From a virus, in the IMG/VR virus record IMGVR_UViG_3300045772_000004, positions 1-22,145 of that record: a DNA stretch of 22,145 nt; one strand, written 5' to 3'. The notes under the pieces were generated by a model. That model was not told the DNA's origin. It worked only from the letters and a program-made list of their open reading frames with translations, and searched no databases. This document shows, piece after piece, positions 1-21,170 of this stretch (its first letter is position 1; each line of letters begins with the position of its first letter). Position numbers and translations under genes: made by a program.

Positions 1-998
1 GCCGCGCCGTAAGCATCATAGACACTCGCGCCAATCGCTGTCTGGATGTTTGCGCTGGTTGCTTGAGCCGGGGCCGCGCTGGTGGCGTACCAGGCTAGCC
101 CGGTAAACGGTGTAACACCCGCCACAACCGCGCCACCGCCCGTCGGGTAGTAAGCCGGAGAATAGGCCGTGCCACTCTGCACTGTGCCACTGCCTGTGCC
201 TCCCGTAAAGGTGCAGGTCGTAGTAGTGCAGCTTACCCCGGCGCCTGTGAACGTAAACGCACCTGTGTTGCTATTGATGCTTGAAACGCCGCCGCCATTC
301 GCAATCCACGCTCCCGCTGCATCGCATACCTGCGTGCCCGTTCCCCCGGTCGGGCAAGTCACCACTTGCGAATTGGCGCTACTGCTGCTGGTCCATTCCG
401 TCCCTCCATTCAGCGTGAATCCCGGCGTAGAAATCGCCCCGGTAAATGTTGCTCCAGCAAGAGGCGCATAGGCGCTCAGATTTAGAAAGTTCGCTGGAAT
501 CTGATTGGTCGCGTTGTAGGTGCTTCCCCATGATGTGCCGCTATTCACTTCCGGTATTCCTGTGCCGTCAGGGTAGATCATGCCGCCGCCGCTGCCCTTT
601 ATCTCTTGTTCAATCTCCGTCACCTTATCCAAACTGCTTTCGACATTTGCGGGAAGATCAGGCATATATGGAGTGTATTGAGTCAACTGTGTAATGGGTG
701 TAACCCTTTGCAGGACAAGCGTCTGCGCAGTGGGGCAGGCCGTGTTCAGCGTTACACTTCCACCGTTATCGTAGTTGTTGTTTACCGGAACGATGGTATA
801 GGCAGACGACGATAGAACAGTACCGTTCTGCACTACAGTCATAGCCGTAGGGGCGCTGATAGGAAAGGTGAACGGAAATGGGCCTTGGCTATTGGAGCAA
901 ACAAAAGAGGCGCTGGTCGCGATTCCAGTAACGGTCGCGTTGGCGAGTACCGGCAGCAACATCGCAGCAAATAGAATTAACAGTAGTTTTTTCACCAT
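1..998 (-). CDS. Tail fibre / receptor-binding protein with N-terminal signal peptide (3' end beyond window)
   Basis: The reading frame opens with ATG at 998 and stays open to base 1, giving 332 visible codons with no stop, so the gene is cut by the window edge. Residues 1-21 look like a Sec leader: Lys3-Lys4, a Leu/Ile/Phe/Ala core, then A-N-A at 19-21 as a cleavage site. Residues about 25-135 resemble the T7-fibre-type attachment domain: beta-rich, then an R-x-TP-x-TQ motif (98-104) and a helix (about 118-134) like the ERRTPxTQ...LDxxT region of podovirus fibres. After it come Gly/Thr/Ser-rich beta repeats such as YAPLAGATFTG (177-187), GAFTFTGAG (from about 247) and a C-T-T-T-T-C segment. 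The start overlaps the ATP-grasp gene stop by 7 bp. Fibre role is inferred from domain style and position after the ejection proteins. A host-exported adhesin is the alternative. Confidence 0.72.
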   Translation of the reverse strand, partial: MVKKLLLILFAAMLLPVLANATVTGIATSASFVCSNSQGPFPFTFPISAPTAMTVVQNGTVLSSSAYTIVPVNNNYDNGGSVTLNTACPTAQTLVLQRVTPITQLTQYTPYMPDLPANVESSLDKVTEIEQEIKGSGGGMIYPDGTGIPEVNSGTSWGSTYNATNQIPANFLNLSAYAPLAGATFTGAISTPGFTLNGGTEWTSSSSANSQVVTCPTGGTGTQVCDAAGAWIANGGGVSSINSNTGAFTFTGAGVSCTTTTCTFTGGTGSGTVQSGTAYSPAYYPTGGGAVVAGVTPFTGLAWYATSAAPAQATSANIQTAIGASVYDAYGA

Positions 999-2245
999 AA
1001 TCCCCATCCCCTCAGTTCTGCGATCTTCTTCTCGATGATCGGGAATGACCGCGTAAACGCTTCCACTTGAAGTCCCTTGAGCGAGCCGCTGATTTCTTTG
1101 CACTCTTCCATGCAATTCTCGATAGAGTCTCCGCACGCAACCACAGCGGCGATGCGTGGCCCCGCCCCTTGTGGCATAATCCATGTCTTCCCTTTGAATT
1201 CGCTGTTGTAGCGGAACTTGATCTGCGAGCGGTGCTCATGGGGAAAGTCTACCATGAGTGGATGGTTATTGGCCCAGTCGGAATGGATGTTCAACTGCAC
1301 CCCGAACTTGCCTGCATACTCCGGCTCTACCATCTTTCCTGTAGACCCTTGCCATAGAATATCGGCAAGATTCTTGATCCAGTTCAACTCCAACTCCATC
1401 GGCGGCGATCCGGCGCGGCAGCATGGGTCTTGAAGGTAGATGTGAGTTTTGTCCGCTCTCGATTCCAGTGACAGAAAATTCCGGTATCCGTAGCTTTTGA
1501 GTGTGTGAGATAATTTGGCGTAAATGTCCCTCAGCTTTCCCGGCATCTTTGCCCACGGCTTCACTTCGCCAACGTAGCACTCGCCCTTCTCTTCGGTCCC
1601 TAAAACGGCTGTAGAGGGATACTGGCCGTCAATACAATGCGTGTCGATAGCCAGGTCCAGCGTGTCTTTCAGGTTCGGCTCAACGATGTACGTCATGCTC
1701 TCGGCTACCGGACCTAGCCTCGCTTCAATGTCGTCCAGCTTGCTCTTGCCGAGGTCGTAGCCCTCCACCGCAAAGCTCTCGAAGTCGCCTCGCGCCTTGT
1801 TGCCCTTGATCCACAATTTCTCATTGTCGTGAGCCTTGATGTACTTCCGCACCGCCGTCATGCCCTTGATGGCTTCATACGGCCCCTGCGAGATGCCAAG
1901 CTCGGCAAAGTGTTCCTTTGCGTCCTTGCGGTAGATTTCCAGATCGTCACCGTCGAAAGAACCCCATACTCGCTTGCCGATGGATTGCAGATGTGCCTGT
2001 ACCGGCCCCTGGTAGATGTCTGGGAAGATGAACAGATCGCAGTCGTCTATGACTTGATGCAGATCGTCGATGCGCTCTACCTTTTCATCGCCCTCGCCGA
2101 CTTCAAGATGGGCGCTAAAGGGGAAGCCCGACACCCAATTTGATGCGTAATAGACCTTCCCGAACGAATCTGCCAGCGTCCGGGAAAGCTCAGAGAACAG
2201 CCCATTGTCGATGACCGCACAACTTCTCGTAGAATAATCACTCAA
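992..2245 (-). CDS. ATP-grasp protein related to phosphoribosylamine-glycine ligase (PurD-like)
   Basis: This 417-aa protein resembles the ATP-grasp family, nearest in layout to PurD (GAR synthetase), of similar length. Residues 1-90 form a pre-ATP-grasp alpha/beta region. Residues about 143-158 (KLWIKGNKARGDFESF) fit the ATP-lysine and glycine-rich loop. YIVEP (186-190) fits the adenine-hinge strand ending in Glu. DPCCRAGSPP (273-282) lines up with the metal-binding EFNxRFGDPE of PurD, and a G-D-S-x-E helix (372-) matches PurD's C-terminal domain. Asp and Cys replace the usual Glu and Asn metal ligands, so the chemistry may differ or be lost. The start is TTG at 2245, preceded by a near-perfect AAGGAGG 9 bases upstream, and it overlaps the stop of the ejection-protein gene as TTGA. 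Family membership is my reading of motifs. The substrate is unknown, and purine synthesis is unlikely given the setting between ejection and fibre genes. Confidence 0.6.
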   Translation of the reverse strand: MSDYSTRSCAVIDNGLFSELSRTLADSFGKVYYASNWVSGFPFSAHLEVGEGDEKVERIDDLHQVIDDCDLFIFPDIYQGPVQAHLQSIGKRVWGSFDGDDLEIYRKDAKEHFAELGISQGPYEAIKGMTAVRKYIKAHDNEKLWIKGNKARGDFESFAVEGYDLGKSKLDDIEARLGPVAESMTYIVEPNLKDTLDLAIDTHCIDGQYPSTAVLGTEEKGECYVGEVKPWAKMPGKLRDIYAKLSHTLKSYGYRNFLSLESRADKTHIYLQDPCCRAGSPPMELELNWIKNLADILWQGSTGKMVEPEYAGKFGVQLNIHSDWANNHPLMVDFPHEHRSQIKFRYNSEFKGKTWIMPQGAGPRIAAVVACGDSIENCMEECKEISGSLKGLQVEAFTRSFPIIEKKIAELRGWGLW

Positions 2246-5200
2246 AAGAGTTTACCTCCTTGGCGAATTACCCCCTTAGCTCCCGATAGAGGTTTCCCGG
2301 ACGCTGGCAGCACTCCCTTTTCCTTTTCGCCGGTCGCTGCGGCGCTTTTATCTTGTGTGGTGGTCATGCCTGCAACCGCCGTAGTGTATTCGAGTAGGCT
2401 GTGTTGCTCCTGGTCCGTCGCCATCTCCACGATGTTCTTTAGAGTGAACGGAGCGAAATGGCTGGCTACATACAAGCCCTGATGCCAATCTTTCTCTAGA
2501 TGGGTATCATCTGGCTTGTTGATAGGCTTGCCGCCATATTGTTTATTCTCCGCAAGGCCGATGACAGATTCGCCTATCGGCCCCAACTTGCCGACAATGA
2601 ACTTCGCTGTGCCCATCAACTCACCGTCGTTTATCATCCGGTGCGTCCACGTGATGAAATCTTTCGGCGCTCCTGCAAAGAACCAATTTGCGCTCTTTCC
2701 GCCACCTAATTGCACCATCTCAGGATGCTTCGGATCGTAGGTTCCACCGATCATCTTGCTTGCTGCCGCAGTCATGGCAAAGCCGGTAGCGGCAGACTTG
2801 AAGAAGAAGGCGCGGGAGGCAGAGCCAGCCGGACCACCTTGCAGAGCGTACTTTACGTTGGCGATATTCGAGAATGTCCAGTCGGGAGCAAGCATCACCA
2901 TTCGCGCCAATGCGACTGCATTACGTCCCATGCCCATCATCTCGAAGTTCAGACCACCGTAAGCCGCATTTACCTCTTTGGCTATCGAGCGGCGGGCCGC
3001 GAACATCTCTGCGTTGCTTGCCTCTGGGTTCTTTGCAATCCATCGGGCAATCTTGAGTGAGGAGTCCATCACTTTGAATTTGGTCTGGATTACATCGAAA
3101 GTCTCATGCGTCAACCAGTGCGCTATGGCCTCTGACTGTTTGATACCCGGAAGTTCACGCGCCCGGTCGAAGAAGGAAAGCGTCTCCGCGCTCGTAGGTT
3201 TGAATCCTTCAATCACTTCGTACTGATGCCCGGACTTGGTTGTCTTTAGTCCATCCGCCGCCCACTCGCGCAACGCAGCCTTAAACTCAGGAGCTTCAAT
3301 ATCGGAGACAAGAGCCTTGCCGAAGTCGGTAAACGCCATATTGTTCATGGCGGTGATGGTCAGCGCCTTCATGTGAAAGACAGATAATCCAAGCTCGATT
3401 CCTTTCGTATACGCCTGGACGTGCAAGAACTTTGCAATGCCGGGAATCTTTGATAAGACATTCTTTTCAAAGATGGGATTCAGCGCCTCAGCTACGATCT
3501 TGGGAACGTAGAGGCTGCTTTGTCCTGGGCGTAATGGTGCCCACCCGTCCGGGTGATCTTCCGGCGTTCCTTCTACTCCAAGCCTTGTGTTTTCCAACTC
3601 CGTCTCAAGCATCTTGGTGGCGACTTTTTGCGCATGACTCTCGCCGTAAACCTGCATCGAATCGAGCGCGTTGAGCGTCCGGTAATCAACCTCACTCTTC
3701 TTTAGAGAATCAAGTAGGTGAACTCCCGTTCTTTCTGCGGAGAACTTGCCAAGCGGCCCCGGCTCTTCGCCCTTCACCAAAATGCGGTGCGTGTAGTTCT
3801 CAGGCGGTATTCTGCTCTCAAGGAATCCGAGTTCGCGTCCTTCGTTGAGTGCAGGCGTGTAGTACGCAGTCAGCTTTTTATCTGCCTCCAACATCGCCCT
3901 AGTCGGGTTCAATGCGCGTTCGATTACGGGGATGAGCGGCTTTAACTTTGGGTCATCGCCGACTTTGATACGCTCAAGTTGTGAGCGCAACCCGTCCGGG
4001 CCTTCAACGAACCCTTTGTAATCGCGGTAGAAAGTTAGCGCCTCTTGATCTACCTGCTCAGGTGTCAACTTTTGAAGGCTTTCGCGCAACTGATTCGTGA
4101 AGGCTACGCGGGTATCACGCTGGCCCACATAGAGGATTCGCAGCACTTCTTTCGCATAGCCGCTACTGACGTTTCCGGCCTTGATGTCGTTCAACCCTTT
4201 GCGGAGCACTCCCAGGCGTTGAATGTTCTCTCTGGACATTCCGCCGATTCCATCTTCGCCTTCCAGCAAGTCGCGCCCATGCACACGATTCCGCGCTTCC
4301 GCGTAATCTTCGGAGTGAAACTCCTGATTCTTCCCGCCCGCAACATCTTCCCACATTTCAGCCACAAGAGGCTCGTTTACCTTCATCCACGCCCGCGCCA
4401 CAGGACGTGTAAGGAATTTGCCATCGGGAGTGACGAATCCCCGCCCAGATTTCATCTCAGCGCGGTTGTAAAGTTCGTCGATGGTTTCAGTTCCCTTGTC
4501 GCCGCCTCCAGCTTCCAGCGCCTCTTTTTTCAGCGCCCACGCCCGGTCAATCGTCTCCTGATCGTGGATTGCTGGATTTTGCAACACGTCATCCGCGAGT
4601 GCGGGGTCGGCTTCCAGTTCAGCCATCGTTACCGGCTTTTGAGCCAAGACGCGCTCTGCAAGGTTCGCGTGATGTTCACCGTCGTCCGCCTCAATGAAAC
4701 CCTCTCCTACCCGAATTGCGGACCGTAGACCCGGCTGAGGCTCAGGCTTAACAGGAGGCTGTGCGGCCATCTTCTCGCCTGTCTCTTGCGGTGTAGTTCC
4801 ATCCTTGGCGTACACGTCCATCGCGGCCTGTTTGATGTCTGCCCTCTTGAGCAGCAAACCGCCCGTCGCCAGATTCAGCGGAATGACCATTAGGGCTGAA
4901 TCCTCAAAGTCTCGCAAGCGTGGAACCTGCCCGTTCAATAGCGAGCCAACCGTGGTAATCGCCGCCGCCTGGTATGCACCCTTCATGGCGATGGTAGACA
5001 GCGGTTTCCCGGCCAGCATACCGGGCACAGGAAGCTCCCCGGCGATAGCAAAGGCTTCCGCCCCTAATCCGCCCTTGGTAGCCTCCCAGAGCGCATCCCC
5101 GGCCCTCGTGGTCAAGTCCTGAAAGTCTTTTACGTCGCCTTTTTGGTAGTGGTCCATCATCGTCTTGCGAAGACCTGCATCAAAAGCGGAACCGCCGACG

Positions 5201-5679
5201 AATCCACCTATCGCCGCGCCCGGTACTACCGCATCCGCGAGTGCGCCGCCGATAGTCGGAATCAAGACCACCGGATCAGTGGCGAAGCTAACGGCGTTAT
5301 GGACAAACCGCTCAAGGGCGTTGGTAGACTTAAATGGTTCTGGGGCTTTGCCGCGCAAGAGCATACCTAGAGGGGTTTCCTCAAACCCGGTTTCCGCCGC
5401 ATCGAGAAATCCCTTGTCATTGTCGTAATCTCCGCCTGCATCTCGCAGTTGGCGCTCGATCTCTTCGCGGTTCTGATAGGCGTAACCAGCATCTACCCCA
5501 AGCATCTGCGAATGAACTCCCGCCTTGAATGAATCTGAGGCGAGGTCTGGTGTGATCTCCGGTCCAGAATACAGCCGTTCACCTGTCGCTGGATCAATTT
5601 GAGGCGCGGCATATTGGTCCCACTTATCAGGAGCAGGTTGGGTTGGCACCGCGTACTGGTCCCACTTGTCACCTGGCAT
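2242..5679 (-). CDS. Large internal virion / DNA-ejection protein (gp16-like position)
   Basis: This is a 1145-aa protein whose length and position, third after gp14- and gp15-like genes, match the largest ejected core protein of podoviruses, which helps form the trans-envelope DNA channel. The N-terminus carries a short tandem motif, DKWDQYA at residues 4-10 and 18-24, of the type common at the start of phage ejection proteins. Gly/Ala-rich hydrophobic stretches (about 125-170 and 200-280) could insert into membrane. The C-terminal third has an AYGGLN...LAPDWT motif, which I recall from very large phage proteins. I see no lytic transglycosylase active-site motif, unlike T7 gp16. I chose ATG at 5679 because AGAAGGA lies 8 bases upstream and it overlaps the upstream stop by 11 bp; an in-frame ATG at 5703 has a weaker site. 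Function is inferred from context. Confidence 0.7.
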   Translation of the reverse strand: MPGDKWDQYAVPTQPAPDKWDQYAAPQIDPATGERLYSGPEITPDLASDSFKAGVHSQMLGVDAGYAYQNREEIERQLRDAGGDYDNDKGFLDAAETGFEETPLGMLLRGKAPEPFKSTNALERFVHNAVSFATDPVVLIPTIGGALADAVVPGAAIGGFVGGSAFDAGLRKTMMDHYQKGDVKDFQDLTTRAGDALWEATKGGLGAEAFAIAGELPVPGMLAGKPLSTIAMKGAYQAAAITTVGSLLNGQVPRLRDFEDSALMVIPLNLATGGLLLKRADIKQAAMDVYAKDGTTPQETGEKMAAQPPVKPEPQPGLRSAIRVGEGFIEADDGEHHANLAERVLAQKPVTMAELEADPALADDVLQNPAIHDQETIDRAWALKKEALEAGGGDKGTETIDELYNRAEMKSGRGFVTPDGKFLTRPVARAWMKVNEPLVAEMWEDVAGGKNQEFHSEDYAEARNRVHGRDLLEGEDGIGGMSRENIQRLGVLRKGLNDIKAGNVSSGYAKEVLRILYVGQRDTRVAFTNQLRESLQKLTPEQVDQEALTFYRDYKGFVEGPDGLRSQLERIKVGDDPKLKPLIPVIERALNPTRAMLEADKKLTAYYTPALNEGRELGFLESRIPPENYTHRILVKGEEPGPLGKFSAERTGVHLLDSLKKSEVDYRTLNALDSMQVYGESHAQKVATKMLETELENTRLGVEGTPEDHPDGWAPLRPGQSSLYVPKIVAEALNPIFEKNVLSKIPGIAKFLHVQAYTKGIELGLSVFHMKALTITAMNNMAFTDFGKALVSDIEAPEFKAALREWAADGLKTTKSGHQYEVIEGFKPTSAETLSFFDRARELPGIKQSEAIAHWLTHETFDVIQTKFKVMDSSLKIARWIAKNPEASNAEMFAARRSIAKEVNAAYGGLNFEMMGMGRNAVALARMVMLAPDWTFSNIANVKYALQGGPAGSASRAFFFKSAATGFAMTAAASKMIGGTYDPKHPEMVQLGGGKSANWFFAGAPKDFITWTHRMINDGELMGTAKFIVGKLGPIGESVIGLAENKQYGGKPINKPDDTHLEKDWHQGLYVASHFAPFTLKNIVEMATDQEQHSLLEYTTAVAGMTTTQDKSAAATGEKEKGVLPASGKPLSGAKGVIRQGGKLF

Positions 5680-7852
5680 TGGGATGGTCCTTCTTGAACG
5701 CATCTACCTGATCTACGGGAATGTGATATGTCTTTCCGCCATCTGTGAATGTTTGCGGTTTGGTTTGCCTTAACCACGCTGGCACACCAGGAGACGACAA
5801 TGGGAGAACACTCATGAGGCGATTCCAGTTCTGAGTAACCAAATCTTGAGGAGTTTGTACAGGGAACATCTGACTCACCCTGTCTGCAATCTGCTTCTGA
5901 ACGGCCGGTTTTAGCGCATCTTGCATGACCTCCATCTTGTTCCGCTCTGGATGCGCGTTGACCTCTTGGCGGAACGCAGCCCATGTCTCAACTGCCATCT
6001 CGTTGTCTCGTGCCGCTTGCTGCACATGAATCGTAGTCTGCCCTTCGGACGCATTCTTCGGCAAAGGCGGAAGGGTAAACGTATCGCTTAGTAACCCAAT
6101 CGCTGCGCGGTAAGTTGGGTCTTTTTGCGATTCCGTCGCCGCATCTATCAACTGCGTCCTATCCCTGGAAACGAGTCCCGGCATGGTGCGAAGTTCTATC
6201 GGCGTATAAATCTTCCCCGACTTAATTTCCGTAAGAACATTCAACGCCGTATCGCTGCTTTTCTGCTCTTGCTCCTGCCGCGCTTCCTGTCGTTCGGCTA
6301 AAGATATTGAACGGTTGACGCGATAATTCTCATCCCACTTCGACAAAAGATAGCTTCGTCCATGAGCGGAGATTTCCGAGTCAGGAATCTGGAATATCTG
6401 AGGGCGTGTCATTTTCGCAATGTTCGGCTCGTACTTGTCGATAGCCTTTATGTCATTGTCTGCTGCTTCTTTCTCCCACTCCGCTCTCTGACGCGTGACC
6501 TCCTGCTGCAACTTCTCGCCCATAACGCGGTCAGGTTTCCCGTCAGGAGTAACGGCCCCTATGCTCTTGAGAAAGTCTCCGTCGTCAACGGCATTCTCTC
6601 GCGCCTCGTAATCGCCCTTCCCGTTGTTTGTATACGGGAACTTCCCGAAAGCATCGTGCATGTTGTTGAGGACGCTGTTCAAGTTCTGAGATTCGGCAAG
6701 GTTATTCAGTTCACGGTCCTTCATCTCCGCTGCCGTCAGAGTTGTGTTTCTTTCGTCCAGGTTCATGCCGTCTACCAGCGGATGGTCAGACGGTGATCCA
6801 CTCACTGATGGTCGAGAATCCCCCCTATTGTGGAGTTTATTGGCGTAGGCGTCGGCATCATCTGGATTGTCAAACTTACCAAGGTTCTCCCCAGTAGAAA
6901 GATAGTGCTGCCGTGCGGCCTCAAACATGGCCTTCTCTTCCGCGCTTCCCTCTGCGGGTTTCTTCCCGTCGGGAGTCAGAAACTTTCCATCTACAACCGT
7001 TGGTACAAGAACCTCTTTTCCGTCCTGCTCGAAGGATGTTGAATACTCGCTGCTGTGCGTACCATCTTCATTTTGAACAGTTGGACGATTCCATATCGGG
7101 AGATTTCCTTCCTCTACCATTCCTTTCGGCTTAGCCCCAACCGTAAAATTCGTGGACGCATCGCCGCTTCCGCGCAGCATTTTAATTACCCGTTGCCTGT
7201 CTTCCGCTTTAGGGCTGTTCGCCAGCGCCCCAATCGTGTCCATCTTGGAAGCCTTCAGCCACTTGTCGTAATGCGCGTCGGCCTGCTCCTGGGTCATGGT
7301 CCCATGCTTGACTGAGGATGCAAGCAAAATTCTCTCATCGTTCTCAGCTAAGGTCGTATCGCCGCCACTGGCAGCCGCAAGCACGTAATCCCCGCTGTAC
7401 TTTGTGCCCAACATCTCGTTCGCGGCCAGGTCATTTTCCGTGGTGACTTTCGCTTGCCTTACAGTCGCCAAATCCTGTATGCCTAGACTTTGATGTGCGC
7501 TGTAAAACTGCAACGCTCTGGACACTTTTGGATTCTTTTGTGAATTTATAGCCTCTTGCGCTTGCTCATCAAAACCCCGCCGAATGTCTTGCATCTGCTC
7601 TGGGGTAGTAGCCTTTCCTATCGCCCCATGAGCTTGAGCCTCAAGAGCATCTATCGCTATCTCGCCCTGCTTTACCTCTACTGTCTCTTGCGCCTCCTGC
7701 ATTTTCTGGGCAACATGGAACCCCATTTCTGCCACGCTGCCCATTTGCTCCGCAGCGTTCGCCATTGCCGCGCCTGGTTCTCCGGCGATACGGGGGTTCA
7801 TCTCCGGCTTAGGAGTCATTGTGGGCGCTACGATTTGGGGAATTTCGGCCAA
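5669..7852 (-). CDS. Internal virion protein (gp15-like position) with embedded small virion-associated domain
   Basis: This 727-aa protein is mostly helical and rich in Gln, Glu and Ala (coiled-coil-like around 30-140 and 470-560), as expected of a core/ejection protein. Residues about 243-344 form a distinct compact domain: G-N-L-x-x-x-NRP at 249-256, then KEVLVPTVVDG, H-Y-x-x-TGENLGKFD and ADAYANKLHNR. I recognise this as a domain that recurs in many unrelated phage virion proteins (NRPxVxNxDGT...VLIPTV...GxHLGxFDxPxxAxxYAxxLH). It seems inserted between helical parts. Start is TTG at 7852, with AGGAGG 8 bases upstream. The gene follows the 155-aa core protein after 12 bp, and its end overlaps the next ejection gene. 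No enzymatic motif is evident. The role is inferred from position and composition. Confidence 0.68.
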   Translation of the reverse strand: MAEIPQIVAPTMTPKPEMNPRIAGEPGAAMANAAEQMGSVAEMGFHVAQKMQEAQETVEVKQGEIAIDALEAQAHGAIGKATTPEQMQDIRRGFDEQAQEAINSQKNPKVSRALQFYSAHQSLGIQDLATVRQAKVTTENDLAANEMLGTKYSGDYVLAAASGGDTTLAENDERILLASSVKHGTMTQEQADAHYDKWLKASKMDTIGALANSPKAEDRQRVIKMLRGSGDASTNFTVGAKPKGMVEEGNLPIWNRPTVQNEDGTHSSEYSTSFEQDGKEVLVPTVVDGKFLTPDGKKPAEGSAEEKAMFEAARQHYLSTGENLGKFDNPDDADAYANKLHNRGDSRPSVSGSPSDHPLVDGMNLDERNTTLTAAEMKDRELNNLAESQNLNSVLNNMHDAFGKFPYTNNGKGDYEARENAVDDGDFLKSIGAVTPDGKPDRVMGEKLQQEVTRQRAEWEKEAADNDIKAIDKYEPNIAKMTRPQIFQIPDSEISAHGRSYLLSKWDENYRVNRSISLAERQEARQEQEQKSSDTALNVLTEIKSGKIYTPIELRTMPGLVSRDRTQLIDAATESQKDPTYRAAIGLLSDTFTLPPLPKNASEGQTTIHVQQAARDNEMAVETWAAFRQEVNAHPERNKMEVMQDALKPAVQKQIADRVSQMFPVQTPQDLVTQNWNRLMSVLPLSSPGVPAWLRQTKPQTFTDGGKTYHIPVDQVDAFKKDHPNAR

Positions 7853-7864
7853 TTTACCAGCCTC

Positions 7865-8332
7865 CTACATTGAACCCATGAATCCTGTACTCGGCGAATT
7901 CATTGAAAGTGAGGCCATCATTCCGGCCTTAGACAAGCCAGCGATTGCTGTGCTGATTCCGCCTATTGTGCCAGACCACGCCGCTACCTTGCCGTAATAC
8001 TTTTGCAGCACCGCCTCTTCCGTTCCGGCCTGAGATTCGCTTTCCTGCTCCACTCCACTCTGCGCGGCAGTGTGCGCCATCATCAGCAAGGGAGAGCCGG
8101 AAGCAATGTCCACTCCAGCCCGCGCGTAAGCCGTTGCCTGTTTGCCAATGAGGTTGGAATACTTCGCCTCAGAGGTCTGCATTTTCTGCTGCATCTGGTC
8201 AAGAGAGATTTGCGCGTTGTAGTCGTAAGCGCCTTGCTCCTCCTGGCCTTGCTCTAACTGTCCAAACCCGGCGGCGAGTCCGCTAAAGGCACTCTCACCG
8301 GCGAAGAGCATCATCAGAGATTGCGGGTCCAT
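7865..8332 (-). CDS. Internal virion protein, gp14-like
   Basis: This 155-aa protein has the layout of small podovirus internal core proteins (T7 gp14-like). An N-terminal Gly/Ala-rich segment (9-25) leads into a Gln-rich helix with YNAQ at 38-41. An ARAGVDIASGSPL motif (70-82) resembles the ARAGVxxxSGSPL signature common in this group, and a Gly/Ile/Ala-rich hydrophobic C-terminal stretch (about 118-140) may contact membrane. In T7 such a protein is ejected first and is thought to form a pore in the outer membrane. The start ATG overlaps the tail tubular B stop by one base (TGATG), with GGAGG 4 bases upstream, so translation is probably coupled. It leads the trio with the 727- and 1145-aa proteins. 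Confidence 0.75.
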   Translation of the reverse strand: MDPQSLMMLFAGESAFSGLAAGFGQLEQGQEEQGAYDYNAQISLDQMQQKMQTSEAKYSNLIGKQATAYARAGVDIASGSPLLMMAHTAAQSGVEQESESQAGTEEAVLQKYYGKVAAWSGTIGGISTAIAGLSKAGMMASLSMNSPSTGFMGSM

Positions 8333-11300
8333 CAGCCCTCCTCGGCCACGGAAAGCCGTGGGGTGACACTGCGCAAACAGAATGGGAACGGGTCACTATG
8401 CACAATATGGATTGTACCTTCATCGGTCCACTCTGAGTCCAAATCGTTGATTACGTTGCCTGTAAACAGCGTTGCCGGACTTCCGGGCGGGAGCGGGTTC
8501 GGAGTGCCCTGCGTGTAGTCGATGCTGTAGAGATGGTTTGCGTCCGTTCCCACCATGCCGCCGATTGATTCAAACATCGAAAGGTTGACGCGAGTGAATT
8601 TTTGCCTCTTGCTCTTCGAGGTCTGCTTCTGATCGCCGAGGATTGGATTCATAGGTTCAATCGTGCTTGTGTAGGGAAGCCCGATGGTAATGAGGTTGGC
8701 GTAGGAGCCAAAAACAACTGTGTCCGCCGTCACAATTCCGGTGAAGATCACTTGCTCATCCCCTACGGCCACAACGGTTTGGCCTAGAAGATAGCTCATA
8801 CCTGTAATCTGATTAGTCACCTGCTCAACCGTTCCCCCGCCCGTGTAGGCTCCCCAGGCGGTTGAGTCGCTGCCTTGAAGCTGGAACGTGTTGCCACTCA
8901 CCCCGGCGACTGTCCATGCCTGCAAGGGATTCGTGTTGACCTGGGTCATACCCAGCACGTCCGCAATAGCTACTGTCTGCCCATCCACGAGCGTATGCCC
9001 AGGCGCTGTCACTACGGCTGGAACTGCATTGGTTATCCCGGTGATGGTGAACGGCCCGACTCCCTGCCACTGCTGGCCGCAATTCACAAAGAAGGCATTG
9101 GACAACTGGCCGAACAATTCCTGCGGCATGAAGTATTCCACGAACCGCTGCGTTACGCCGTTGATGGTCCGGTTGACATCCGCCACGATCTGATCTTCCT
9201 GATTCTGCCCGGAGATAACGGCTGCGGACTCGATCAATCCGGCTCCCATATTCACCCGGAACCATGCGTAGACCTGATCTTGCGTATTGAAGACCTGGCC
9301 GATCAACTGACCATCGTTTCTTACGGCCCAGTAAATCGGGTATGGCTCCATCTGAAAAGCCGTCTGCGCGAGACCTGAGGTTTCCGCCGACGTTCCGATG
9401 GTGATGTTGCGGTTGAGCCGGGTAAGGTCGGTATTGTCCCACTGGTTCGTTACGAAGTTGTAGGCCAGAAACGTGACAATCCGTGACGACCGGCTAACGA
9501 AGATAGCCGAGCCGTTCACCACTTGCGGCTGCAATGAACTTACGCCTCCAGAGCTTTGCTGAGACGCGGTTACATTGGTCTGACTCAGTGCGGAACTATT
9601 GGACCCAGCCACAATCCACACGCCGCCCGATGTGCCGATAACCAGAGCATTGGGAGTCCCCACCATGTTGAGAAGCTGGTTCACCTGGTTCGAGACGAGG
9701 TTGTACTGTACGGCATAATCGTCCGCGTTTGGATCGCAGATAAAATCAGGGTAGTCGTCCTCGACAGAACCGTTCAGTTGCGTCGGATGGTTGTCGCTCC
9801 CGCCAACCATTAGCCGTTCCTGATACAAAGCTCCGCAAGCTGGGTAATCTCCCGTAGCGGCGAACATTGGCACAACTTCTACAGCGAAACCTCCGCCAGC
9901 GTATTGCAATGAACTGGCGGTGTTTACGGCTATGCTGGTGCCTGGTATCAGCAGATTGAAGTACCACGCGTCGCTGGCTGGCGTTATGGTGGAAACAGCG
10001 CCAGTACTATCAATCACCGTGATCGCAGGTGCCCCGAAGGTGATCCCTGAAACTATAAATTCGCCCTCATTTAGATTCACCATCCCGGCACATTCGTTGA
10101 TGTAAATTCTGTCTCCGTCGCTGAACGGGTCTGCGTCTGTGTTTGAGGCCAACACTACAATGGCAGGGTTTGATTGAGAAATAAGGCCGATGCTTTGGCC
10201 TAGCGCCGAATACCCCGTAGTCACTACATCCTGCGTGCCACGATACGCGGCCTCGCCTACCTCCTGGCCGGGAAGCGATAGGCTGTACTGCCATAAGTTT
10301 GCGCTCAGGCGCTGGATCATTCCCGGTGGATAGTTAGGATGGAATATCCATAATACGTCCGCGCTCTGCGTGCTGCAATCGAGATCGAACAGATCGGCTT
10401 CGAGGTATGGAGTCGTTATTTCTAAAGGAGTGCTTATCAACGAACTGCCATCCTGCCAATAAGTTGAGTTCCATGCGGTCGGAGAGATAAGCGGAAACTG
10501 GTCGTACTCATTTGCTAAAACGCATAATGCTACCCAATTCTGATTCACGCACGAGAAACTGCTAGAACCTAACGCGGGAGTGGGTGCCGTTATCCAGGGA
10601 GAAGCATAATAAACCGAGTCCGGCGTAACCGTCCATGCCGCTACGCTTAGGAGGTTGCTTCCCGAAGTATTCAAAGAGACAAGCGCTTGCACTGCTATCT
10701 GTATCAAAGCAGCAGCGTTCTTGCTCGCTGTCGCGTTCGCCAATGCGATATTGATTCCCTGATTTGGGGAAACCCCCGTCTTGGTCACACTTAGAGCGTC
10801 TGTTCCGTTCACTGTGAATGTGATTGGCACACTGCCGGCATTGGAAGTACCATAAGGCGCAGCGATATAGAGATTGCCCGCCGGAGTTCCGGTCGATGAG
10901 GAGATAAAAGCTGTAGGTCCGACCAACACGATAGTCCCAGCCGCATACGGCACAGGACTACCCCCAGTTGATCCACTCATAATGCCGTTAGCTATAGGCG
11001 TGTAAACTTCATCTCCGCCGCTGAACGATATCGTGACCGGGCCCGTGTAACTCCCGCCGTTTGACACCACCACGAAGATCACTCGATAAACGCCAGGCCC
11101 ATAGAGATACATCCCCGCATACGCCGTTGCTCCCCCCACGCCCGGCCCTGTGATAACCACGGTCGGAGGAGTGCTTGAGGAATATACCCCTGGATCGGTG
11201 ACGTTCACCGATACAAGGGTAAGTGCTGAAAAACCATTAGAAGCATTGTAGTTGTTTTCCGTAAGCGTTTTTTCTACTATCCCCAATGACCATGATCCCT

Positions 11301-11784
11301 GAGTTGCTCCTTCCCACACGCGAGCAAGTCCAGCGGATAATTCGAGAATTGCGCCCTGATCCGTGGAGAACTGGAAAGGAACCAGCCGACTCTTTCCGCT
11401 ACTGGCCGTTTGCATGGTCTCGCTGGAAACCGTCTGAGACGCGCTGACTGTGTATATCCCAATCCCGCCGGACCCTACGGTAATGGTCGTGCCAGACGTT
11501 ACTCCAACCCCCACAATCGTCTGCCCGACCTGTAGAACGCCGTAATTGACCGCTGTGACGGTCATGGTTGTTCCAGCGATGGAGGCGGTGAACATTGCCC
11601 CGCCGTTGGCCGTCGTTCCGGCGAAATACGTCCCCGGCATCTTCTTTGCGCCGCCCTCGACCAGGGGTATCGCGTTCTCTAGCTTCCGGCAAGCGGATGA
11701 AAATTTGGCCAAGTCCGAGCGCGACTCGCAGAGACCAGAAATTTCGCCCGTGTTGAAGCTGTTAATTAGGACGTTGGCGTTCAC
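8332..11784 (-). CDS. Tail tubular protein B (nozzle), large mosaic form
   Basis: This 1150-aa protein belongs to the podovirus tail-nozzle family (T7 gp12-like). The N-terminus shows the family signature: [20 protein letters not shown], then [21 protein letters not shown], and a downstream [10 protein letters not shown]. The family in T7 is about 790 aa, and the extra length is beta modules. One (residues about 64-127) splits the family motif. GVY...[10 protein letters not shown] and [16 protein letters not shown] (about 195-265) form another. [16 protein letters not shown]...W-x-V-x-x-V-x-GNTFQL...[11 protein letters not shown] stretch near 870-950 is like the FCCH-type domain often found in phage proteins. 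I chose GTG at 11784 because it overlaps the adaptor stop as GTGA and begins where family homology begins; an in-frame ATG at 11829 would add 15 unrelated residues. Modules may decorate the tail or bind polysaccharide, which is inference. Confidence 0.82.
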
Positions 11785-12527
11785 CGATGCGCCCCCCACG
11801 GCCCGAAGCAGCGACCTGCAGACTGCCAACTTACGCTCCCACTCTCATCCTGAAGGTAGTCGCACTCCTGCTGCGCCGCTGCGGAGTTGAGCGTGGTGAA
11901 GTACATCTGCATCATGCTCTGAGCCTTCTTCGCGTCCTCTGTGATCGCCAGCGCGAGTTCTCCAGCCAGCCGATATGCAAGGCAGTTCACGAAGCCGGGG
12001 AGCAACTGAGTAAAGTCTGTGATGAGCCTAATGTAGTTGATAACGATGGGACAGACATTCGTGTAAGTATCACACCACGGATAATTGGTCAGGAGGTTGT
12101 TGGTGTACGAAACCCCATCGGCGCTCAGAACCGCTTCGATAACATACGGTACAGCCTCGTGCGGGTGTACAGGAATATCGCGATGGCGAAACCATCCATA
12201 TCCTTCACCGCCCCAACCCCACACGGCTCCATCGGCAATGCGGCGCTCTTCCGGTATCTCCCTGGGGCTAACCAGCCTCAGATAATCGGACGGCAGAGCG
12301 TAGGCAAACTTGTACCCCCCCGCTGGAGCTTGCGCGTTCTGCTGCAAAGCGACGCGAGTCTTGGCAAACTTCCATTCTCGCTCCGACAAAACCTCTTGCA
12401 GGACAGCATCCCAGCACACATTTACCTTGATAGCGTTGGGAGTTTGTTCTGTGAGAGAGCCGATAGTTCCACGCGCCCCGATGCGCTGCAAACTCATATT
12501 GGCAATGGCGACCGGACTATAGTTCAT
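11781..12527 (-). CDS. Tail tubular protein A (head-tail adaptor), gp11-like
   Basis: This 248-aa protein is recognisable as the adaptor family that joins portal to nozzle in podoviruses. Diagnostic stretches are an N-terminal A-N[15 protein letters not shown] (about 9-25), then [16 protein letters not shown] (43-61), which matches the family's LxxHPWNFAxxRxxL, and [11 protein letters not shown]-type text (about 75-84). The C-terminal half is helical ([15 protein letters not shown]), as in the family. Length is typical, as T7 gp11 is close to 200 aa. ATG at 12527 has an AAGAGG ribosome site about 7 bases upstream. A 119-bp gap with a hairpin separates it from the preceding gene, the second longest non-coding gap in the window. 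Its stop overlaps the GTG of the nozzle gene (GTGA), so the two tail proteins are likely made together. Confidence 0.85.
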
Positions 12528-18578: not shown

Positions 18579-19043
18579 TTACTCCCCTGTCACAACGATA
18601 ATATCACCGCTCCCGTCGCGACGCGACATCAACTGGTCAGACTCAGCGAAAACCTCGTCCTCGGCTTCCTCGACCGTTCCAAGAGCGGTCGGGTAAATCA
18701 TCGTCATCTCAACCGGCCCGTGAGTCCAAAAGAACTGTTTACGCCCCGCGCATCCGGGTATGACGTTGTAGCCGGTAAGTTCAACCCTCTGGTCGCCGAT
18801 CAGCACTGAGCAGTTTCCATGAACGATTAGAACAGTTGCCAGCTTGATAAGGGAACCCATCATCTTTGTCCCCGGTTGGAGCCGGATGGTTCTAGCGTAC
18901 ATTCCGCCGTGGAATAGATGCTCTGTGGCGAGTTCGATTTGTGGACAAGAGAGAATGATTTTGTTGATTTCGTCTAGTTGAGCGATCATGGCTGGAGTGG
19001 GCGGTACGAGCGCAGCAGTGATTGTCTGGATTGCTGTGCTCAT
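18579..19043 (-). CDS. Small cupin-like phage protein
   Basis: This 154-aa protein fits a single cupin barrel. An early Y49-A-R-T-I-R-L-x-PG (to residue 58) opens the barrel. LIVHGNCSVLIGDQRVELTGY (72-92) is the central pair of strands, and Y-N-V-I-PGCAGRKQFF (92-105) resembles cupin motif 2. The usual two-His-plus-Glu metal site of motif 1 is missing (text GSLIKLATVLIVHG at 63-76), so it may be a binding or structural barrel and not an enzyme. I chose ATG at 19043: it overlaps the GNAT stop as ATGA and has GAGG upstream, while an in-frame upstream start at 19148 would run deep into the GNAT gene. A C-terminal acidic tail (EEAEDEVFAESD) follows. The role in the phage is unknown. Confidence 0.65.
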   Translation of the reverse strand: MSTAIQTITAALVPPTPAMIAQLDEINKIILSCPQIELATEHLFHGGMYARTIRLQPGTKMMGSLIKLATVLIVHGNCSVLIGDQRVELTGYNVIPGCAGRKQFFWTHGPVEMTMIYPTALGTVEEAEDEVFAESDQLMSRRDGSGDIIVVTGE

Positions 19044-19483
19044 AGCCACCTCGTAAACATGGTATGGCTTTCCTTGCAACCGGGGCGGCGCGATAGAACC
19101 ACCTCCAAGGGACTTCCTACCCTGGCCGTGTACAGCAGAGCCACACACCCTGTCACCGCCGATACCCTTTCGACGGTCGTCATCAATTCATTCGCCGCTC
19201 CAGTTGCTCTGTGAGACGGCAAAACGAATAGGCTTTCAATCGTCGCCGTGCGCTTGCCGTTGTGCGGCATAACTCCTGTGATTACAGAGACAAATCCTAC
19301 GAGAATACCATCCGCATACGCGCCGAAGCAGTAAAGCGCCCCTGAATTCTCCAGCGCAGCGTATATATGGCGCTGCGGATTGTAGTCGGGCATCACGCAA
19401 TCCTTCGCGTAGGCATCCAATAGTTCTGCAGAGTTGGGCGCGTCGAGGATTTCCGAGTAGCTGACTGGCCTTATCTCAAGCAT
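19040..19483 (-). CDS. GNAT-family N-acetyltransferase
   Basis: This 147-aa protein fits the GNAT fold, which moves an acetyl group from acetyl-CoA to an amine. G-I-L-V-GFVSVI (59-68) is the beta4 strand. A-T-I-E-S-LFVLP (80-89) is the beta strand before the CoA loop, and R92-A-T-G95-A-A97 is the R/Q-x-x-G-x-G/A pyrophosphate-binding motif, followed by the helix NELMTTVERV. I chose ATG at 19483, with GGAG about 6 bases upstream; an in-frame GTG at 19489 has no spacing from that site. It overlaps the terminase stop by 8 bp and the cupin start by 4 bp. Substrate is unknown. Acetyltransferases occur near terminase or portal genes in other podoviruses, but I do not know of a proven target. Confidence 0.72.
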   Translation of the reverse strand: MLEIRPVSYSEILDAPNSAELLDAYAKDCVMPDYNPQRHIYAALENSGALYCFGAYADGILVGFVSVITGVMPHNGKRTATIESLFVLPSHRATGAANELMTTVERVSAVTGCVALLYTARVGSPLEVVLSRRPGCKESHTMFTRWL

Positions 19484-21170
19484 TGGCACTCCGCAATCCG
19501 TAGCTCAGTGGGCTGTAGTCCGTTTCGTTTCTCGCCGCCAGAAATTGTGCGATCAAATCGTTTTTCTCGTTCGGCGGCGAGTAGACCGGCTGTTCGAGAG
19601 CGATATACCTCACCGTATCGGCAAAATCCTTGTACTCTTCGGCGGGTTTGTCGGTTCCCGCCTTCCACTGATAGTTGAATAAATCCTGAGTTGGCCCCCG
19701 TTCCCCGCGGCAACCCTCTTCGGCGAACATCAATGCCGGTATCTCCTTGCTCTTCACGGTGGAGTAGTGGTTTTGGAGGTATTCTTTCACCCGCTTGTGC
19801 CCCAAGGCAATGTCTCCGGCCTCGGAGTGCGAGAGCCGGATACGCCCGATTCCCGCCTTGTCGAGTTCATCTTCCCACGAGGTATCGTTGAGTTGCGTTC
19901 GCGCTCCGTACTTTGCGTCCAATACTACGAACGCCGGTTCCGAATAGTTGTGTTCTGCGCGTTTGACCTTCACCTGTCGCGCAATCTCCTCAACATTCCC
20001 GTTCGCCAATAGATACGCATAAACGTAGATTCGGTTCGCCGGTTTCCCGTTTATTGTAATGTCCTCCGGCGAGACTGCCGCAAACAGCCAGCGAGTCGGT
20101 CTAGCGTCGTGCGGGTCAACCGCCTCAATCCGCATCCAATCGGCGGGTATTTTGAAATCTTTGTAGAGATGCACCGCCCGGTCGAGCGTTTTGTAAACCA
20201 GCCCGCTCAGGTGGCCTTCCTTGCCGCCAATGTGCGCGTCATACTCCTCTGGATCGGTAAACAGCTTGGCATACTCTTCGATGCCTGCTCTTGGGATGAA
20301 GCCCATAATCTGTCCGCACTTTGGGCAATTGTTTACCGGGCGTTCTGCATGAGGGTCATCCATGTTGACCGGATCGTTTGCCGAGATGTACTCATCGCAC
20401 TGCCGGCAATAATCCTGGCAGTTGTCCCAAGTCGTTCCGGTAAAAATTGCAATCTCTTGATCTTCCCCGCCTCCGTTAAACGCCTTCACGGAGAACATAT
20501 CGTAGAAGTACGGTGCCCCATAGAGCGGGGTCATGGCGAACCAGGAGGGAGCGTTGGTCGTGACCTTGCCGCGCTCGGCAGCAATCAGCAGATCGTGCGG
20601 TGGCGGTTCATCCCAACCGTAGTGGTCGTAGTCGATTCCTAGAAACGTATCTGCCAACTGGTTATACGACCGAACATGGAGGGTGGAACCGCAGGCCCGT
20701 CCAACATAGTCGTACTTCAACGTGACCGACTTCAATGCCCCGGTCGTATCCCGCTTCCAGTCCGGGGCGCAATGCGCCGGGATGAGCATGGCAAGCTCCG
20801 GCTCGATCTTTGCCGACACCGACTGAGCCATCGTCTGACAGCCCATGAACCCTTGATTGGGAACTCGAATCGAAATCTTGTAGTCAGGGTCGTCCTGAGA
20901 AAGCCACGGCCTGAATCCCATCGCGTGAGCTATTGATTCGCAAACGGAAATTCTCGTTTTACCCACCTTCTCGCCAGGCTTAAGTATCCGCCGTCGAGGT
21001 GTGCGCCCGTACTTGTTCTTGATCCTGACGAACGGGTCTTGCACCCGGTTCATCCTCAGCATACCAAGGCGCATCAACTGGTTTGCGGTTGAGACGAGCT
21101 TATCTGGCTCAATCTTCCCATCCGAACCGACAAGCCGCGCCAGCACGTCCGGCTGTTCGCGCTTCGCCAT
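19476..21170 (-). CDS. Terminase large subunit with zinc-ribbon insertion
   Basis: This 564-aa protein is the DNA-packaging motor. The ATPase part has a Walker A variant PGEKVGKT (65-72) and a Walker B ending in D187-E188 (YGWDEPP). The RNase H-like nuclease part has D352 (EAVDPHD), D418 (FVVLDAKYG) and D515/D518 (DFADTVRY) as likely metal-binding acids. Between the two halves lies a CxxC pair at 255/258 and another at 282/285, a zinc-ribbon pattern, which is not usual in terminases I know. C251 is an additional nearby cysteine. I chose ATG at 21170, since GGAGGAG precedes it and it overlaps the upstream stop as TAATG; in-frame sequence up to 21230 would lie within the previous gene. No small terminase is seen in the window. 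Confidence 0.9.
   Translation of the reverse strand: MAKREQPDVLARLVGSDGKIEPDKLVSTANQLMRLGMLRMNRVQDPFVRIKNKYGRTPRRRILKPGEKVGKTRISVCESIAHAMGFRPWLSQDDPDYKISIRVPNQGFMGCQTMAQSVSAKIEPELAMLIPAHCAPDWKRDTTGALKSVTLKYDYVGRACGSTLHVRSYNQLADTFLGIDYDHYGWDEPPPHDLLIAAERGKVTTNAPSWFAMTPLYGAPYFYDMFSVKAFNGGGEDQEIAIFTGTTWDNCQDYCRQCDEYISANDPVNMDDPHAERPVNNCPKCGQIMGFIPRAGIEEYAKLFTDPEEYDAHIGGKEGHLSGLVYKTLDRAVHLYKDFKIPADWMRIEAVDPHDARPTRWLFAAVSPEDITINGKPANRIYVYAYLLANGNVEEIARQVKVKRAEHNYSEPAFVVLDAKYGARTQLNDTSWEDELDKAGIGRIRLSHSEAGDIALGHKRVKEYLQNHYSTVKSKEIPALMFAEEGCRGERGPTQDLFNYQWKAGTDKPAEEYKDFADTVRYIALEQPVYSPPNEKNDLIAQFLAARNETDYSPLSYGLRSANA

Follow-up and report, generated by a model that had tools for sequence, protein, structure and literature searches.

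A PurD-fold ATP-grasp ligase family of phages, encoded among virion genes, whose gene neighbours point to arginine- or ornithine-derived amines

The ligase gene and its surroundings

The window, which is the entire virus record of 22,145 bases, carries a gene for an ATP-grasp ligase with a PurD fold (Table 1). The open reading frame shares only a few bases with each neighbouring gene, and on its upstream side the sequence TTGA combines the start of the ligase with the stop of the preceding gene. The strong ribosome-binding site and TTG start mentioned in a preliminary description of this DNA are indeed present, and in one relative (L001) an ATG stands at the residue where the ligase of the window starts with TTG. 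Comparison with L001 gives a dN/dS ratio of 0.089; for a further relative (L002) the ratio is 0.048, with dS close to saturation. The reading frame is a genuine, strongly conserved gene (dN/dS 0.05-0.09).

Table 1. Positions of the ligase gene, its conserved motifs and the flanking genes in the window
Feature	Position	Strand	Remarks
PurD-fold ATP-grasp ligase gene	992..2245	-	417 aa; TTG start
Shine-Dalgarno sequence AAGGAGG	2255..2261	-	9 nt 5' of the ligase TTG; read from the sequence
N-domain motif DNGLFSEL	2186..2209	-	at the place of PurD GNGGREHAL, judged from position; D12 invariant in the family alignment
ATP-site strand and loop, WIKGNKARGDFES	1775..1813	-	VIKADGLAAGKGV in PurD; K146, R151 and E155 invariant
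GTEEKGE	1580..1600	-	near PurD QDHKR, after which PurD GPNTGGMGAYSP is absent; G215, E217 and K219 invariant
LSLESR	1457..1474	-	E260, candidate extra metal ligand, invariant; Gly in PurD
DPCCRAGSPPME	1394..1429	-	residues 272-283; equivalent of PurD E286-F-N288
1153-aa protein at the T7 gp16 (internal virion/ejection) position	2242..5703	-	placed by gene order; stop overlaps the ligase start
T7-type tail fibre gene	3..998	-	runs off the record; phrog_1640, E 9.5e-9; ATG overlaps the ligase stop

Farther upstream are genes for portal, capsid and tail tubular proteins and for a small protein of internal-virion type, so that the window has the gene order of T7-like phages, into which the ligase is inserted after the gp16 position and before that of gp17. 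The 1153-aa product had been called an ejection protein. This name is drawn from the T7-like order and from the neighbours (phrog_394, 376, 418 and 1640); the protein had no family match of its own in the scans.

The N-terminus of the fibre protein (MVKKLLLILFAAMLLPVLANA...) reads as a Sec signal peptide, which is odd for a phage tail part, and an adjacent protein family of about 180 aa in relatives (cluster-16; L133:11255-11809 and L150:11264-11806) has a Sec-like signal peptide start too. The tail tubular-B-like protein (8332-11829, minus strand) contains two E1_FCCH repeats (PF16190, E 1.5e-13). Between the terminase and portal genes, two minus-strand reading frames (18579-19148 and 19040-19489) look like genes for a GNAT acetyltransferase and for a protein of cupin type.

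A viral family with the PurD fold

The protein of the window alone gave nothing useful against Pfam, PHROGs, NCBIfam and the PDB; a match to the PNGM-1 beta-lactamase in the single-sequence scan (E 0.06) was attributed to chance. The first family profile was made from nine close viral relatives. When IMG/VR was scanned with a DNA pattern for DPCxRxGSPPxE, 102 stretches were obtained, and because nearly all of them encode full homologues, the motif match is far above chance. A second IMG/VR scan, in which the Cys was not required, yielded 268 relatives, and the 73 representatives have a median pairwise identity of 46%. The searches of other collections returned very little: tblastn against 50,697 phage records gave insignificant matches only and no family member, and no member was found in a first genome scan with alignment A1. 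When 84,980 genome species were scanned for the motif, a search that needs DPC and would let Met, Thr or Ala variants escape, one true member was found, on a 31-kb prophage-like contig of Bradyrhizobium sp. YR681 that IMG/VR also lists as a virus. The ligase family is almost entirely viral. The enzyme is encoded by hundreds of uncultivated phages, but the searched libraries contain no model of the family and the annotated phage records no match to it.

In some members, intein-like insertions of about 350-380 aa occur at two different conserved ligase motifs (L087:1646-4087, L030:1798-4149 and L250:1806-4205), the sites being between DLW and CFPD in L087 and between RGD and SETW in L030 and L039.

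The preliminary description had assigned the protein to the ATP-grasp/PurD group from its motif order, and this assignment proved right, as judged from the structural model and from the PDB and profile matches. An AlphaFold2 run with eight sequences (pLDDT 44) was replaced by a run with 73 sequences, which gave the full PurD fold with a pLDDT of 95.5. The top 14 Foldseek matches of this model in the PDB are all PurD; the best of them, Aquifex PurD (2yw2), matches over the whole length of the fold (E 1e-19, TM 0.73/0.72). ATP-grasp matches were also obtained among viral predicted structures, and these were weaker. The fold of GspS-type (glutathionylspermidine synthetase) enzymes is absent among the top 50 Foldseek PDB matches. 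At the sequence level, the profile of the 73-member family matches PurD chains with an E-value of 3e-7, and the PurD model TIGR00877 is matched by 34 of the 73 members (best E 3.4e-8), all of them far below its cut-off of 288 bits; the protein of the window has no match to this model. An ATP-grasp fold derived from PurD is virtually certain, and it is very probable that the ligase is nevertheless not a PurD.

The family was aligned by HHalign with PurD of E. coli and 30 other cellular PurDs (residue numbers of the ligase leave out the initiator Met). K146, the ATP-binding Lys on the central strand, aligns with the Lys of PurD VIK and is invariant in 115 of 115 sequences. The glycine-rich loop of PurD, AAGKGV, is replaced by RGDxE, and PurD QDHKR falls near a family motif GxExK. 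The PurD motif GPNTGGMG is lost in the family, and the GPNTGGMGAYSP block, the glycine-site motif of PurD, is absent from the alignment. Both HHalign and HMMER place DPCCRAGSPPME on E286-F-N288-C-R-F-G-D-P-E of E. coli PurD, so that D272-P-C274 falls on E286-F-N288, in which Glu286 and Asn288 are presumably the metal pair of PurD. Throughout the family (about 110-120 sequences), K146, E155, D200, E217, K219, E260 and R276 are invariant and D272 is nearly so.

In the preliminary description, an Asp and two Cys were thought to replace the metal ligands of PurD. The motif is indeed changed, with Asp for Glu and C274 for Asn, but the idea of a special role of both cysteines as ligands was rejected. 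C275 aligns with a variable position of PurD and varies within the family, and among 22 distinct sequences from loci fetched without selection for Cys, residue 274 is Cys in 13, Met in five, Thr in two and Ala in two; C274 is therefore common, not essential. E260 and D272 are each present in all 22 of these sequences, and metal binding at these two acidic positions is predicted, with Cys, Met, Thr or Ala at the position of the Asn. E260 lies 12 residues before D272, presumably the same spacing as in biotin carboxylase, where E276 and E288 would be metal ligands one and two.

Neighbouring genes across lineages

Virion genes surround the ligase gene in 101 nonredundant loci. These belong to two or more types of phage, one T7-like, to which the window conforms, and another that has terminase, capsid and a P22-like portal (PF16510). 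The late position among virion genes emphasized in the preliminary description therefore recurs across diverse phages, whereas the placement beside gp16-position and fibre genes holds for the podovirus-like clade; in others the gene lies between the terminase and a P22-like portal.

The most frequent partner is a gene for a SpeD-like pyruvoyl decarboxylase of 120-140 aa, related to S-adenosylmethionine decarboxylase (AdoMetDC; PF02675, E 1.2e-7; AdoMetDC in the PDB, E 1e-7). By the counts of a simple gene caller, it adjoins the ligase in 42 of the 101 loci and lies within 0.5 kb in 40 of these 42. Conversely, all 38 viral SpeD-like loci that were found independently contain the ligase. The pyruvoyl Ser63 and the catalytic Cys83 are kept in 25 of 25 SpeD-like proteins; the position of His68 of AdoMetDC is Asp in 19, His in five and Glu in one, and because most members have Asp for this catalytic residue, the activity is not certain. 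In most members, Q, T, F and Y around the pyruvoyl Ser have the order of the residues diagnostic of ornithine decarboxylases, in a comparison of order only. On the ligase tree (FastTree, with long branches), gain and loss of the SpeD-like gene amount to at least ten state changes. In 11 records of the clade of the window that were searched whole, up to 48 kb, no SpeD-like gene was found, and the substrate in the window lineage is therefore suggested by homology only.

Other enzymes of arginine-type substrates are also found near the ligase. At locus L022, which is without SpeD, a gene for a pyruvoyl-dependent arginine decarboxylase (TIGR00286, 115.9 against a cut-off of 106.95) overlaps the end of the ligase gene. 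This locus groups on the tree with the SpeD-bearing L059, and at this one locus SpeD has likely been replaced by an unrelated enzyme of similar activity. A gene resembling arginine deiminases and amidinotransferases lies directly upstream (-1) of the ligase in L101 and L030, and in L039 a domain of the same type forms one part of a fusion with a minor-head-like protein, encoded two genes upstream; the C-terminal Cys is retained in these genes (three loci in all). A domain of this kind was also seen at the C-terminus of an apparent Mu-F-like minor head protein in L250 (5693-8974, minus strand). Because three unrelated enzyme families for arginine-type substrates adjoin one ligase, these neighbours are the main functional clue.

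In 39 whole records of relatives, spermidine synthase (PF01564), the arginase/agmatinase family (PF00491), thymidylate synthase (PF00303) and AIRS_C (PF02769) were not found. A spermidine pathway and the conversion by a PF00491 enzyme of agmatine to putrescine or of arginine to ornithine were accordingly rejected for these records. Since these four families are absent, the decarboxylase product is not obviously destined for the synthesis of purines, of a hypermodified base, or of putrescine or spermidine. The earlier statement that the ligase has no link to purine synthesis is in agreement with the lack of AIRS_C and of the glycine-site motif.

A further neighbour, a protein of about 125 aa with HExxE, EPGD and APY..EH motifs, stands beside the ligase in 20 of the 101 loci and belongs to a wider phage family with 336 relatives. 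H47, E51, P91, Y92 and H96 are invariant (loci L284-L363), and no Pfam, PHROG or solved-structure match was found. Among 80 fetched loci with this protein, the DPC-type ligase is present in 32. Another 22 have a divergent sister of it that is likewise PurD-like (L305:2674-3984, L327:2756-4150 and others) and belongs neither to PurD nor to the DPC family.

Possible function and comparison with known systems

The preliminary description had proposed, as speculation, that the enzyme ligates or modifies a virion or envelope component. The neighbours across lineages point instead to the chemistry of arginine- or ornithine-derived amines. Because the glycine-binding motif is lost and, in many related viruses, enzymes of arginine or ornithine adjoin the gene, the reaction is probably the coupling of a small amine with an acid and not a step of purine synthesis. 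The best explanation, for which we see about an even chance, is a virus-specific amide ligase of the ATP-grasp group that descends from PurD and whose amine substrate most likely derives from arginine or ornithine. The analysis shows the fold, the ancestry, the conservation, the operon position and the partner genes, while catalysis, substrates and product are inferred. The ligase is probably catalytically active; the choice of an arginine- or ornithine-derived amine as its substrate is a more evenly balanced matter. ATP would be bound through K146 and the RGDxE loop, and E260 and D272 would provide the metal site at which it phosphorylates a carboxylate; attack of the amine on the acyl phosphate would then give the amide. 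The amine would most likely be a small one, agmatine or putrescine, or a guanidino compound, supplied in many relatives by the adjoining pyruvoyl decarboxylase or amidinotransferase-like enzyme and in the window lineage presumably by the host. Production would be late, in step with the virion genes, and would yield either a modified protein or a small conjugate.

In a broader and more tentative proposal, which we hold to be possible but somewhat less than evenly probable, the ligase would form a widespread, phage-only biosynthetic cassette with an interchangeable pyruvoyl-dependent arginine/ornithine decarboxylase or amidinotransferase-like enzyme. Such a cassette, expressed with virion genes, would make an agmatine, putrescine or guanidino amide for use on the host, on the virion or on the DNA packaged in it.

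The constant association with virion genes, whether at the gp16-position and fibre genes of the podovirus-like clade or at the terminase and P22-like portal elsewhere, could also be explained if the ligase modified proteins late, during assembly, by attaching an amine or an amino acid to one that is ejected or is part of the virion, the decarboxylase link in relatives being secondary. The amidinotransferase-like domain fused to a minor-head-like protein in L250 agrees with this explanation, but no one virion protein adjoins the ligase in every lineage and every one of the independently found SpeD-like loci carries the ligase, and we consider it rather unlikely. Less probable still is a binding or regulatory protein that has kept the fold and lost catalysis. 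The glycine loop, the glycine-site motif and Glu286/Asn288 of PurD are all changed, as would fit such a loss; against it stand the invariant K146, E155, D200, E217, K219, E260 and R276 with the near-invariant D272, the low dN/dS, and the two intein sites within conserved motifs, where inteins are usual in active enzymes.

Amine-producing partners and a phage-only distribution would be compatible with polyamine hypermodification of phage DNA bases, as in putrescinylthymine. This is most improbable, as the 39 records contain no thymidylate-synthase-family enzyme and the gene is in a late virion position. That the protein is a true PurD which boosts purine synthesis during infection hardly deserves credence, in spite of its PurD fold and remote PurD sequence match: the family scores far under the TIGR00877 cut-off, GPNTGGMGAYSP and AIRS_C are missing, and the Bradyrhizobium genome with the prophage ligase has its own full PurD.

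For the amide ligase that we prefer, the partner genes define a class of substrates that is concrete and can be tested, and the family would extend the amine metabolism of phages by a new branch. The known phage decarboxylases had been assumed to feed putrescine or spermidine pools, whereas in the 39 records spermidine synthase and agmatinase are absent and the ligase is the consistent partner of the decarboxylase.

With PurD (glycinamide ribonucleotide synthetase; TIGR00877; 2yw2, 1gso) the ligase shares the whole-length fold, the domain order, the ATP-grasp Lys, and the Arg and Gly-x-Pro of the last motif. It differs from PurD in the loss of the glycine-site motif and of the glycine-rich ATP loop, in the change of E286/N288 to Asp and mostly Cys, in the Glu at 260, in the lack of a purine context and in its identity of 12-15%. 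The sister family (EWTPRFGYDA or EPTCRFGVPA) is likewise PurD-like, phage-encoded and located beside the same HExxE protein; unlike the ligase it keeps the Glu, and some of its members also retain GPNTG; it is nearer to PurD (E 1.6e-26) and forms a separate clade in the tree.

In bacteria, GspS-type ATP-grasp ligases are linked to AdoMetDC (PMC11237479), and E. coli YgiC and YjfC are, according to a title cited in PMC12568646, peptide-spermidine ligases. Like the ligase described here, these enzymes are ATP-grasp ligases tied genetically to AdoMetDC/SpeD homologues and polyamines, but they are of the GspS type and not of the PurD type. Published work has shown that certain SpeD homologues of phages decarboxylate ornithine or arginine, and these reports do not mention an ATP-grasp partner (PMC9992855, PMC10407285); the SpeD-like partner found here differs from these decarboxylases in that the equivalent of His68 is mostly Asp.
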